Below are positions 52,296 to 54,674 of a stretch of DNA of 64,000 nucleotides, in pieces (position 1 is the first letter of the stretch; each line of letters starts with the position of its first letter). This stretch comes from Actinotalea caeni (lineage in GTDB: Bacteria; Actinomycetota; Actinomycetes; Actinomycetales; Beutenbergiaceae). The translations under genes were made by a program, and so were the position numbers. The notes below the pieces were generated by a model. That model ran no database searches, was not told the DNA's origin, and saw only the letters and a list, made by a program, of their open reading frames with translations. The stretch spans positions 62,001-126,000 of the forward strand of contig NZ_WNXX01000001.1 of NCBI RefSeq assembly GCF_009733795.1, read 5' to 3'.

Positions 52296-52985
52296 TCAGC
52301 CCTCGCTGCGACCGACCTGGTCGATGACGGCGTCGGCGACCTCGCGCATCGTGAGGCGGCGGTCCATCGACGTCTTCTGGATCCAGCGGAACGCCTCGGG
52401 CTCGGTCAGGCCCATGCGGGTCATGAGCAGTCCCTTGGCGCGGTCGACGCGCTTGCGGGTCTCGAAGCGGTCGGTGAGGTCGGCGACCTCGGCCTCGAGC
52501 GCGACGATCTCGCGGTGGCGGTGCAGCGCGATCTCGAGCGCCGGCAGCAGGTCGGCGGGCGTGAACGGCTTGACGACGTAGGCCATCGCGCCGGCGTCGC
52601 GCGCCCGCTCGACGAGCTCGGTCTGGGAGAAGGCGGTGAGCAGCACGACCGGGGCGATCCGGGCCTTGGTGATGCGCTCGGCGGCGGTGATGCCGTCGAG
52701 GACGGGCATCTTGACGTCCATGACGACGACGTCGGGCTCGAGGTCGGTGGCGAGCTTGACGGCGGTCTCGCCGTCGCCGGCCTCGCCGATGACGTCGTAG
52801 CCGGCCTCGTTGAGGGTCTCGACGACGTCCATCCGGATGAGGGGCTCGTCCTCGGCGACGACCACGGTGCGGCGCTCGCCGGCGCCGGTGGGCGCGGGCG
52901 CGTCCTCGGCCTGGCGGGCGTGGTCGAGGTCGAGGACCACGTCGTCGGCGGGCGTCCTGGGCTGCTTACCGTTCGCTTCTGTCAC
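52296..52985 (-). CDS. ANTAR-domain response regulator (PdtaR-like)
   Basis: A 229-residue regulator: a receiver domain (about 42-155) with VVVAEDEPLIRMD, the phospho-acceptor in DVVVMDVKMPVLDG, the Thr/Lys switch in LLTAFSQ and VVKPF, and a C-terminal ANTAR RNA-binding domain (KRVDRAKGLLMTRMGLTEPE then AFRWIQK). ANTAR proteins act as antiterminators on paired hairpins in nascent RNA. No histidine kinase is adjacent; in mycobacteria the partner PdtaS is also unlinked. GTG 52985 has TACGCT six bases upstream and was preferred over longer readings that run into the tRNA. Confidence 0.93.
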   Translation of the reverse strand: MTEANGKQPRTPADDVVLDLDHARQAEDAPAPTGAGERRTVVVAEDEPLIRMDVVETLNEAGYDVIGEAGDGETAVKLATDLEPDVVVMDVKMPVLDGITAAERITKARIAPVVLLTAFSQTELVERARDAGAMAYVVKPFTPADLLPALEIALHRHREIVALEAEVADLTDRFETRKRVDRAKGLLMTRMGLTEPEAFRWIQKTSMDRRLTMREVADAVIDQVGRSEG

Positions 52986-52991
52986 GGGGGT

Positions 52992-52997
52992 AGCGTA
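52992..52997 (-). promoter_or_regulatory. Leaderless -10 element of the ANTAR regulator
   Basis: TACGCT on the minus strand, six bases before the GTG at 52985, in the gap with the divergent tRNA. Confidence 0.6.
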
Positions 52998-53038
52998 GTG
53001 CTCCGTCGCGTCGACGCAGGTGAGACCGACGTCACTGT

Positions 53039-53112
53039 GCCCCGATAGCCCAACCGGCAGAGGCAATCGGCTCAAACCCGATCCAGTGTGGGTTCGAATC
53101 CCACTCGGGGCA
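53039..53112 (+). tRNA. tRNA-Leu-like gene, anticodon CAA, short variable arm
   Basis: A full cloverleaf: acceptor GCCCCGA (53039-53045) with TCGGGGC (53105-53111) and discriminator A; anticodon stem ATCGG with CCGAT around CTCAAAC, anticodon CAA at 53073-53075; T-arm GTGGG/CCCAC with loop TTCGAAT. The D-stem is weak. CAA reads UUG leucine, yet the variable loop is five bases (CCAGT), where leucine tRNAs have a long arm. The 3' CC is followed by G, so CCA is not fully encoded. It could be a genuine oddity or a tRNA-like regulator. Confidence 0.85.
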
Positions 53113-53504
53113 CCGAGCGCCAGCGAGGTGCCCCGAGCGGGATGACGGGAGCCGGAACGGCGTGCGAGGAACGAGCACGACGAGACGGCGGCTCCCACTC
53201 GGGGCACCGAGCGCCAGCGAGGTGCCCCGAGCGGGATGACGGGAGCCGGAACGGCGTGCGAGGAACGAGCACGACGAGACGGCGGCTCCCACTCGGGGCA
53301 GCAGCCGACCAGTGCGCCAGCGAGGAGCCCCGCGCGGGATGACGGGAGCCAGCGCCGCGTGCGAGGAACGAGCACGACGAGACGGCGGCTCCCACTCGGG
53401 GCAGCAGCCGACCAGTGCGCCAGCGAGGAGCCCCGCGCGGGATGACGGGAGCCAGCGCCGCGTGCGAGAACGAGCACGACGAGACGCCGGCTCCCACTCG
53501 GGGC
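53099..53504 (+). repeat. Tandem repeats attached to the tRNA 3' end (tyrT-repeat-like)
   Basis: Four direct units of 94, 94, 103 and 102 bases start at 53099, 53193, 53287 and 53390; a 13-base partial fifth starts at 53492. Each starts with TCCCACTCGGGGC, the 3' end of the tRNA; unit 1 is physically that end. Units 1 and 2 are identical. Units 3 and 4 form a second type with an insertion near the start and differ from each other by one deletion and one substitution. In units 1-2 CTCGGGGCACC pairs with GGTGCCCCGAG (11 bp). Later, GGGAGCC pairs with GGCTCCC at the unit joint. No protein is supported. Confidence 0.9.
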
Positions 53505-53539
53505 GCGCGCTCCTGCCGACCCGCCGGTGACGCGCCCCG
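53499..53539 (+). terminator. Hairpin closing the tRNA repeat array
   Basis: CGGGGCGCG (53499-53507) pairs with CGCGCCCCG (53531-53539). It starts within the partial fifth copy and probably ends the tRNA-repeat transcript, facing a convergent gene. Confidence 0.5.
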
Positions 53540-53579
53540 GAGCGAGGACGGCCCCCACGCGCGCACCAGGCCGCGCTCG

Positions 53580-54674
53580 CTAGCGGCGCGCCTCGTCCTC
53601 GACGGTCTCCGACGCCTCGTCGGCCGTGGTCTTCGTCACGTCACCGTCCGCCGCGTCCGCCGCGTCCGACCCGTCCGCCGCGTCGGTCGCGTCGCCGCTG
53701 GCCTCCGCCTCGGCCGGCTCGGTGGCCGCCGCGGGCTCCTGCACGAGCGCGCTGAGGGCGGCACCGGAGACCCCGCCGCCGATCGTCGCGAGCATCTGCC
53801 GCACGTTGGACAGCTGCGCGGTGATCGCCTCGCGCTGGCTGGCGGCGGCGGCGAGCTCGCGGTCGGACTCGCGCTTGATCTTCTCGGCCGTCTCGCGGGC
53901 CTCGCGGACGAGCCGCTCGGCCTCGGCGCGTGCGCCGTCGAGCAGCTGCTGCGCCTCGCGCTCGGAGTCGGCCTTGCGCTCCTCGGCCTCCTTCTCGATC
54001 GCGGCGAGCCGCTCCTCGGCCGCCGCGAGCTTCTGGTCGTGCTGAGCGAGCGCGCGGGCGAACTCGGCGGACGCCTGCTCGCGCCGCTCGGCGAGCGTGG
54101 TCTCGAACTCGGTCGCGGCGGCCGCGGCCTTGGCGCGCTGCCGCTCGAACACGGCCTCCGCCTCCTCGCGGCGCGCGGCGGCCTCGCGGTCGGCGACGTC
54201 GAGGATCTCGTCGGCGCGGCGCTGCGCGTCCGCGAGCCGCTTCGCGACCTCGGCGTCGGTGCGCGAGATCGACTCGTCGGCGTGCGCACGCGCCTGCGCG
54301 ACCTGACGCTCGGCCTTCTCCTGCGCGTCGCGCAGCAGGGCGTCGGCGTCGGCCTGGGCGCTGCTGCGCAGCTCCTCGGCCTCCTCCTGCGCGAGGCTGA
54401 GGATCCGGCCGATCCGTTCCCCCAGGTCGGCGTAGGAGGGCGCGCTGGCCGTCTGCTCCTCGGCGGTCGCCTCGAGCTCGGCGACGCGGGCCTGCAGCCG
54501 CTCGAGCTCCTGGGCGGTCTGGCCGCGCTGGGCGCGCTCGCGCTCCAGCTCCACGGTCCGCTCGGCCACCGCCTGCCGGGCGGCCTCGGCCGCCTCCTTC
54601 AGAGAGGTGACGTACCGGTCCACCTCGGTCGGCTCGTAGCCGCGCAGAACGGTGCGGAACGTGGCGTCAGACAT
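53580..54674 (-). CDS. DivIVA-like coiled-coil protein
   Basis: A 364-residue cytoplasmic protein. The first 25 residues (TFRTVLRGYEPTEVDRYVTS) resemble the DivIVA N-terminal motif that senses curved membrane. A long Ala/Glu/Arg coiled coil (about 30-290), then a hydrophobic patch and an acidic Ala/Asp tail follow. Proteins of this build (FilP, Scy, Wag31-like) organise polar growth or cell shape. ATG 54674 has GAGGAG six bases upstream and overlaps the preceding coiled-coil gene by eight bases, which suggests a hetero-complex. Confidence 0.82.
   Translation of the reverse strand: MSDATFRTVLRGYEPTEVDRYVTSLKEAAEAARQAVAERTVELERERAQRGQTAQELERLQARVAELEATAEEQTASAPSYADLGERIGRILSLAQEEAEELRSSAQADADALLRDAQEKAERQVAQARAHADESISRTDAEVAKRLADAQRRADEILDVADREAAARREEAEAVFERQRAKAAAAATEFETTLAERREQASAEFARALAQHDQKLAAAEERLAAIEKEAEERKADSEREAQQLLDGARAEAERLVREARETAEKIKRESDRELAAAASQREAITAQLSNVRQMLATIGGGVSGAALSALVQEPAAATEPAEAEASGDATDAADGSDAADAADGDVTKTTADEASETVEDEARR

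Follow-up and report, generated by a model that had tools for sequence, protein, structure and literature searches.

The array behind tRNA-Leu(CAA)

Directly downstream of a tRNA-Leu(CAA) gene of Actinotalea caeni, within a stretch of 64,000 nucleotides (the window), lies an array of head-to-tail units of 94, 94, 103 and 102 bases in which TCCCACTCGGGGC occurs five times, the tRNA's own copy included. Its parts are given below in window coordinates.

53039..53114, plus strand: tRNA-Leu(CAA), short variable arm (ARAGORN; Rfam tRNA, 57.5 bits)
53099-53114, plus strand: L0, the template copy, which is the tRNA-Leu(CAA) 3' strand T60-C75
53115..53126, plus strand: loop of hairpin A (L0-loop-L'), GAGCGCCAGCGA
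53127..53142, plus strand: L' of unit 1, an inverted copy of the tRNA 3' end (inverted-repeat search; DNA fold)
53143..53192, plus strand: core of unit 1, TGACGGGAGCC...GCGAGGAACGAGC...GACGGCGGC, stopping directly before L1
53164..53176, plus strand: GCGAGGAACGAGC, the GA / GNA-triloop / GA minihairpin of unit 1
53193..53208, plus strand: L1, the first copy of the tRNA 3' end, 16 nt, TCCCACTCGGGGCACC
53193..53286, plus strand: unit 2, 94 bases, identical letter for letter to 53099-53192
53287..53389, plus strand: unit 3, 103 bases, second type
53390..53491, plus strand: unit 4, 102 bases, second type, one base shorter than unit 3
53492..53504, plus strand: final copy of the tRNA 3' end, a partial fifth unit

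The original prediction had described four tandem units of these lengths and a partial fifth, each with a copy of the tRNA end, and this was confirmed by the copy positions and by TRF. Copies of TCCCACTCGGGGCA start at 53099, 53193, 53287 and 53390 (14/14 each) and at 53492 (13/14), giving spacings of 94, 94, 103 and 102; TRF reported a single array at 53099-53504 (4.1 copies, 93% matches), whose score of 564 was the highest of 13 rows for the window. Units 1 and 2 agree in 94/94 bases and units 3 and 4 form a second type, also as predicted, and growth of the array by tandem duplication is supported. The copied 3' strand of the tRNA was present as described, with the refinement that the copies start at T60/C61 and that only L0 and L1, the copy that opens unit 2, extend through ACC (16 nt); later copies stop short, and the in-window copies measure 13-16 nt. 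The hairpin foreseen at 11 bp exists but is larger: its 17-nt arms (53098-53114 and 53127-53143) are 94% complementary and enclose a 12-nt loop.

Folding as DNA gave z -5.5 for 53099-53143 and z -3.5 for 53144-53200, compared with -2.65 for tRNA-Leu(CAA) alone. The GCGAGGAACGAGC minihairpin is found again at 53258-53270 and 53361-53373 and, minus one base, at 53464-53475. Rfam detected only the tRNA in the array region, apart from an antisense match to a plastid model that fell below threshold. The array ends at 53504, and the next ORF, on the opposite strand, ends at 53580. By reading, a 420-aa ORF on the minus strand (window 52296-53558) crosses the array into a response-regulator-like gene, the true start of which probably lies near 52985. 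An imperfect 9-base tandem repeat occupies window positions 53645-53698 within the minus-strand ORF downstream of the array. Both UUR leucine tRNAs of this genome have a short variable arm (CAA, 76 nt; UAA, 75 nt, locus L043), the other leucine tRNAs here measuring 83-88 nt; over all 28 printed CAA or UAA loci, from relatives as well as from this genome, the range was 74-77 nt.

Distribution of the units and comparison with E. coli

The same part order recurs across loci: L0, a loop or a terminator-like hairpin, L' (inverted), a core with a GNA-triloop hairpin, and L1 (direct). The core spans ~50 bases; GGGAG, GCGA-G-A-GAGC and CGG contain its invariant letters, and its apex reads GA-S-GNA-S-GA, where N is any base. 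GNA triloops are unusually stable in DNA and are related to the GCGAAGC hairpin. Among 40 copies selected at no more than 1 mismatch in 12, a selection that leaves aside six unit loci without such a copy and one without a recognised tRNA, L1 starts at T60/C61 in 40/40 (T60 is shared by 35; the five Arg-TCT copies start at C61). Counted from C61, the match covers 12 to 15 bases in 25/40, ending near the tRNA end; in 11/40 it extends to 17 to 90 bases by also taking in the sequence that follows. Copies are spaced 70-141 bases apart across loci, and no gene is carried.

In this genome, 45 fetched tRNA loci were annotated with ARAGORN and scanned for the 12 bases from C61 (at most 1 mismatch; copies inside other tRNAs excluded). 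A copy of the tRNA's own 3' end was present within 450 bases downstream of 8/45 tRNAs (Leu-CAA, Arg-CCG, Arg-TCT, Arg-CCT, Ser-GCT, Ser-CGA, Gly-CCC and Pro-TGG) and upstream of 0/45, which places the downstream copies beyond chance. Two further carriers in this genome are tRNA-Pro(CGG), whose unit lies ~1.4 kb off, beyond an IS481-type insertion, and the tmRNA gene, which has one unit plus two more tmRNA-type units on the same contig. Overall, the carriers comprise at least 10 tRNA types and tmRNA. BLAST with a single unit found the unit body behind Leu-CAA and Arg-CCG only (6 matches). A covariance model built from 14 units gave 16 matches in this genome, and all 16, placed by their coordinates, are at a tRNA or tmRNA end or are displaced copies thereof, in line with the predicted link to tRNA genes. 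At the one 5S gene match in this assembly, no unit was found.

Three neighborhoods in this genome (G000) deserve separate description. At contig C4:13600-14930 (locus L233), an IS481-type insertion sits at the tRNA-Pro(CGG) 3' end, with 15 bp of the tRNA tail duplicated (CTGTCACCCCGACAC). At contig C5:54149-68550 (loci L231 and L279), a defence-type island, three tmRNA-type units are interspersed among a broken integrase ORF and genes for a PD-(D/E)XK nuclease and an HsdM-type methylase. Finally, another palindromic element, with a GGGAGC...GCGAGGAACGAGC core in what read as long inverted arms, occurs once, at contig C26:4696 (L200), and also at L088, L092, L093, L101, L109 and L145, in records of Actinomyces, Cellulosimicrobium, Luteimicrobium and Isoptericola. 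In Blastococcus and Trujillonella (L105, L118, L139 and L166), we read tandem units with the core GGGAGCATCGCAGCGAGGAACGAGC and with arms that repeat the adjacent sequence as those of the tRNA units do; at L105 and L166 they stand directly at apparent stop codons of protein genes.

Among relatives, the covariance model matched 11/24 family genomes (38 matches in all), and the 30 family loci that were fetched had a tRNA in 30/30 cases, close by in 29 and behind an insertion sequence in one. Order-wide, at E<=1e-4, 10/248 genomes matched, three of them from other families; of the six loci in these three, five follow a Ser or Pro tRNA, and the sixth is beside what reads as a tRNA-Ser-like stretch that ARAGORN rejects. 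A phylum-wide draw matched 1/396 genomes, namely this one. The phylum and order scans used stricter filters and a stricter E-value and recovered just 11 and 15, respectively, of the 16 matches in this genome, so absence elsewhere is a weak inference. Matching units are present in Terrabacter and Phycicoccus records. A pattern scan of named genomes gave at least 118 stretches, 15 of which were read by eye; among the matches listed, L087, L168 and L196 show the pattern downstream of a tRNA together with a tRNA-end copy; L180 also follows a tRNA but has no such copy. All others listed, including a second match in L087, have no same-strand tRNA within 1500 bases upstream. Spread via phages or plasmids was rejected, BLAST giving one weak partial match per collection; a pattern scan of viral contigs gave 23 stretches by pattern match alone.

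The original prediction had asked whether the array sits behind the same tRNA elsewhere, and in one relative it does: of 18 tRNA-Leu(CAA) loci printed with 320 bases downstream, just 2 carry the array, those of this genome and of G001, from the same genus. In G001, the copies track that genome's own altered tRNA end, TCCCACCCGGGGCAC. Ten tRNA-Leu(UAA) loci printed alongside were array-free by eye.

The closest known design is that of the tRNA-linked repeats (TLRs) of E. coli, 22 of which occur at ten loci in K-12 (Rudd 1999, cited in PMC8144298). TLRs have been known since 1978 and carry 18-19 bp of the upstream gene's end; as far as the accessible part of that source goes, they have no known function, a tyrT phenotype having been retracted (PMC8144298). 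The likeness to tyrT in the original prediction is borne out by the tyrV array of MG1655, which has the same part order, with copies that start from the T-loop/T-stem border, and by further units behind Pro, Lys and Arg tRNAs. The tyrV tRNA-end copies lie at +178, +356 and +534 from C61, with an inverted copy, GGGGAAGGA, ahead of the core; GAGCGCCAGCGAG, from the loop of the Leu hairpin A, recurs in 2/3 tyrV repeats, and the third has GAGCGTCAGCGAG. Our MG1655 scan covered 16 stretches (one without a tRNA) with 45 tRNA predictions, one apparently spurious, and thus a subset of the strain's tRNA loci. It found 13 units, behind Tyr (3), Pro-CGG (1), Lys (6) and Arg-ACG (3), and the copy starts at the T-loop/T-stem border in 13/13. 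The inverted copy before the core scores at least 7 in 9/13 units (Tyr 3, Lys 4, Arg 2; scored without a control), and a GA / GNA-triloop / GA hairpin with a varying stem stands directly ahead of the copy in 10/13 (Tyr, Pro and Lys); it was not found in the three Arg units. Matches to the tyrV core, counted by match alone, occur at 1 to 10 places (median 3) in 4692/5426 E. coli genomes; in SK1144, two tandem tRNA-Tyr genes were read with no array behind them. Covariation and tandem GA have been noted in the E. coli element (PMC8250186, PMC7657543).

The Actinotalea units share with TLRs their site directly 3' of tRNA genes, their occurrence as one or more units and the terminal copy of the upstream gene's end. 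They differ in core sequence, in copy length (mostly 12-16 nt here versus 18-19 bp) in occurring also behind tmRNA, and in not having been found behind the one 5S gene match of this assembly. The Rfam RtT model (RF00391) placed the E. coli Tyr, Pro and Lys units, used as a positive control, above the gathering score and the Arg units below it; it gave no match at E<=1 in window 52900-53800 or in the 11 loci scanned. By the stated copy length and the Rfam model, the array is not assigned to the E. coli family, though it is built the same way. Searches of the openly accessible literature listed no report of such arrays outside enterobacteria.

Pairing in the units

Both hairpins of the unit keep their pairing while their letters change. 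For the core stem, four units without the apex pattern were dropped and 42 were merged to 35 unique hairpins with four inner pairs each; standard pairs fill 135/140 of these cells, compared with a mean of 97.9 and a maximum of 112 in 2000 shuffles, and the third pair is GC in 12, CG in 8, AT in 7 and TA in 6. The fit of L' to the end of its own tRNA had a mean score of 9.61, compared with a mean of 6.30 and a maximum of 7.44 in 2000 permutations. The fit to its own end outscored that to every other tRNA end in 22/36 cases; since it is best in only this number, L' cannot be the sole template for an exact L1.

RNA helices tolerate G-U but not A-C, and the deviations from Watson-Crick pairing were therefore counted by type. 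The arms had 9 GT, 8 AC and 41 other deviations beside 413 Watson-Crick pairs (31/36 L' cases; 5 under the score limit were dropped), and the core stems had 8 GT, 9 AC and 22 others beside 241 Watson-Crick pairs (core position 6 left out). As a control, the acceptor and T stems of 45 tRNAs had 29 GT, 0 AC and 2 others. Summed over arms and core, the unit helices thus show 17 GT and 17 AC, i.e., no G-U preference, in a noisy count in which other mismatches outnumber both. Since RNA helices accept the one and not the other, this equality points to pairing that is kept at the DNA level, through selection or templated copying; it is suggestive rather than final, because the background of other mismatches is high and the counts are uncorrected for relatedness, and part of the equality may reflect decay or misalignment.

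These counts bear on the reading that the units are functional RNA, in which read-through from the tRNA promoter would yield processed small RNAs, processing decoys or staged terminators. Such a role was first proposed for tyrT. In its favor, three E. coli TLRs located after rRNA operons, RrA, B and F, yield processed transcripts that bind Hfq and CsrA in vitro (PMC8144298), so that an RNA role is possible there, and the RtT helices have covariation support (PMC8250186). In silico, moreover, when the tRNA and unit 1 are folded together as RNA, L0 pairs with L' and L1 with the tRNA 5' strand, so that the predicted competition with tRNA folding is possible on paper, although as a function it is unsupported. 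The units' equal GT and AC counts, set against 29 and 0 in tRNA stems, speak against an RNA role within the noise of the test, as do the loss of a unit without trace in a near relative (see below) and, for TLRs, the want of a known function and the retracted tyrT phenotype in the accessible part of PMC8144298. In several loci, moreover, the unit stands, by eye, beyond an apparent terminator hairpin, and a simple scan of 52900-53700 found no terminator-like site. The functions originally put forward (a decoy for RNase P/Z, competition with tRNA folding, graded termination and small-RNA production) accordingly find no support in arms and core stems that covary without the G-U preference of tRNA stems, noisy as that comparison is, and we consider a functional RNA unlikely.

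Locus states and possible origin

The tRNA-Arg(CCG) locus, read in four genomes of one genus, is found in several states: a full unit in G012, a unit without the hairpin core in G018, the first bases only in G005 and, in G015, downstream sequence that abuts the tRNA end directly, i.e., a scarless empty site. The arms follow their host gene: a T-stem pair of tRNA-Gly(CCC) differs between two genera, and L1 and L' differ along with the tRNA. Pro-TGG and Gly-CCC of G005 share the same core over 47 bases but have different arms, a sign of transfer or gene conversion. Mean core likeness was 0.79 for the same tRNA across genomes (62 pairs), 0.74 for different tRNAs within a genome (57 pairs) and 0.74 for other pairs (547), values that fit vertical descent better than frequent jumping. 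Part order, the T60/C61 start, tRNA-specific arms, covarying hairpins, tandem copies and full, decayed and empty states are all features of the units as observed.

Several routes to such repeats were considered and set aside. A retroviral-style primer-site origin of L' was rejected because L', by reading, follows the genomic letters behind the tRNA and not the added CCA; a strong stop of a polymerase at modified A58, because the copy begins at 60/61 and not at 59; and target-site duplication by an insertion sequence, because units often have a terminator-like hairpin between L0 and L', which simple duplication does not produce. Many scattered copies are typical of REP/RAYT systems. Here, the 16 model matches are not scattered but are all at RNA-gene ends or displaced copies, with arms that vary by tRNA, and the Y1 transposase PF01797 had 0 matches in this genome and in 0/11 unit-bearing family genomes (5/14 control genomes matched), so this candidate too was rejected. 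REPs/REPINs and CGTC-tagged palindromes, as described in the accessible part of PMC3733652, are, like the units, short palindromes found at the ends of genes and sometimes nested in a longer host palindrome, and the CGTC-tagged ones resemble the units also in being without a dedicated transposase; REPs are scattered palindrome families, whereas the units here have arms matching the adjacent tRNA, and no Y1 transposase was found.

It is conceivable that L1 serves as a second attB that captures integrases targeting tRNA 3' ends. The tmRNA locus has an integrase-like ORF (PF14659) that starts ~100 bases past L1; farther on come two more tmRNA-type units, with defence-type genes in the interval. 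A precedent is provided by the Dehalococcoides islands, whose insertion in the T-loop of tmRNA leaves direct repeats in tandem (PMC3146451). These ssrA islands resemble the units in their tandem repeats of an RNA-gene 3' end, the T-loop border and a conserved motif just before each repeat, but they carry genes and a serine recombinase (PMC3146451), whereas the spacing here is 70-141 bases and geneless. A search for tyrosine-type integrase motifs near units found one in 1/36 loci, the tmRNA one, and spare attachment sites would leave L' and the covarying core unexplained; we regard this possibility as very unlikely.

A different view dispenses with an element altogether: slippage and hairpin-templated copying at strong palindromes would repeatedly make units behind tRNA genes, and the likeness of the cores would reflect the hairpin best suited to the process. 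The locus-specific arms and the equal GT and AC counts agree with this, and what read as like designs with locus-specific arms occur in Blastococcus and Trujillonella. Against it stand the core letters that are invariant across different tRNAs and families, and the confinement of all 16 model matches in this genome to RNA-gene ends or displaced copies. Repeated local origin appears improbable to us.

The reading that we favor, with somewhat better than even confidence, is that the array is the actinobacterial counterpart of the E. coli TLRs: dispersed DNA palindromes at tRNA and tmRNA 3' ends whose arms correspond to the host gene and which propagate and stay in register through DNA-level processes. 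We infer this propagation, the keeping of register and the mechanism of spread from the features described above. The GNA-triloop hairpins would form in single-stranded DNA, and copying across them could rewrite L' from L0. Slippage or tandem duplication over short direct repeats could add units, as in the Leu array, and slippage over such repeats could delete them scarlessly, as at the empty Arg locus; cores might occasionally be swapped from one tRNA locus to another. A dedicated processing enzyme may be involved, though none was found. Transcripts of the units would be a by-product of tRNA read-through, and the effect of a unit on its host is probably small. The units seem to resemble a self-templating or mobile DNA palindrome more closely than a working RNA, an argument that is made, with the caveats given, from unit helices that covary without a G-U preference.

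A more far-reaching version, which is possible but which we hold to be doubtful, treats the TLRs of enterobacteria and of these actinobacteria as one miniature mobile DNA: a GNA-triloop core would enter RNA genes, those for tRNA and tmRNA among them, at the border of the T-stem and rewrite both arms from its target, moved by a putative enzyme acting on single-stranded-DNA hairpins.

For annotation, repeats of tRNA tails can mislead gene callers, as with the 420-aa minus-strand ORF that runs through the array, and searches for att sites. Why TLRs carry the tail of the neighboring tRNA is not explained in the accessible part of PMC8144298. The wobble counts, together with the full, decayed and empty states, shift the question from RNA function to DNA dynamics, and the same design outside enterobacteria provides a comparative data set for testing origin and function. 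If the version with a single mobile DNA is true, the E. coli oddity of 1978 would be a cross-phylum transposable element with target-derived ends.
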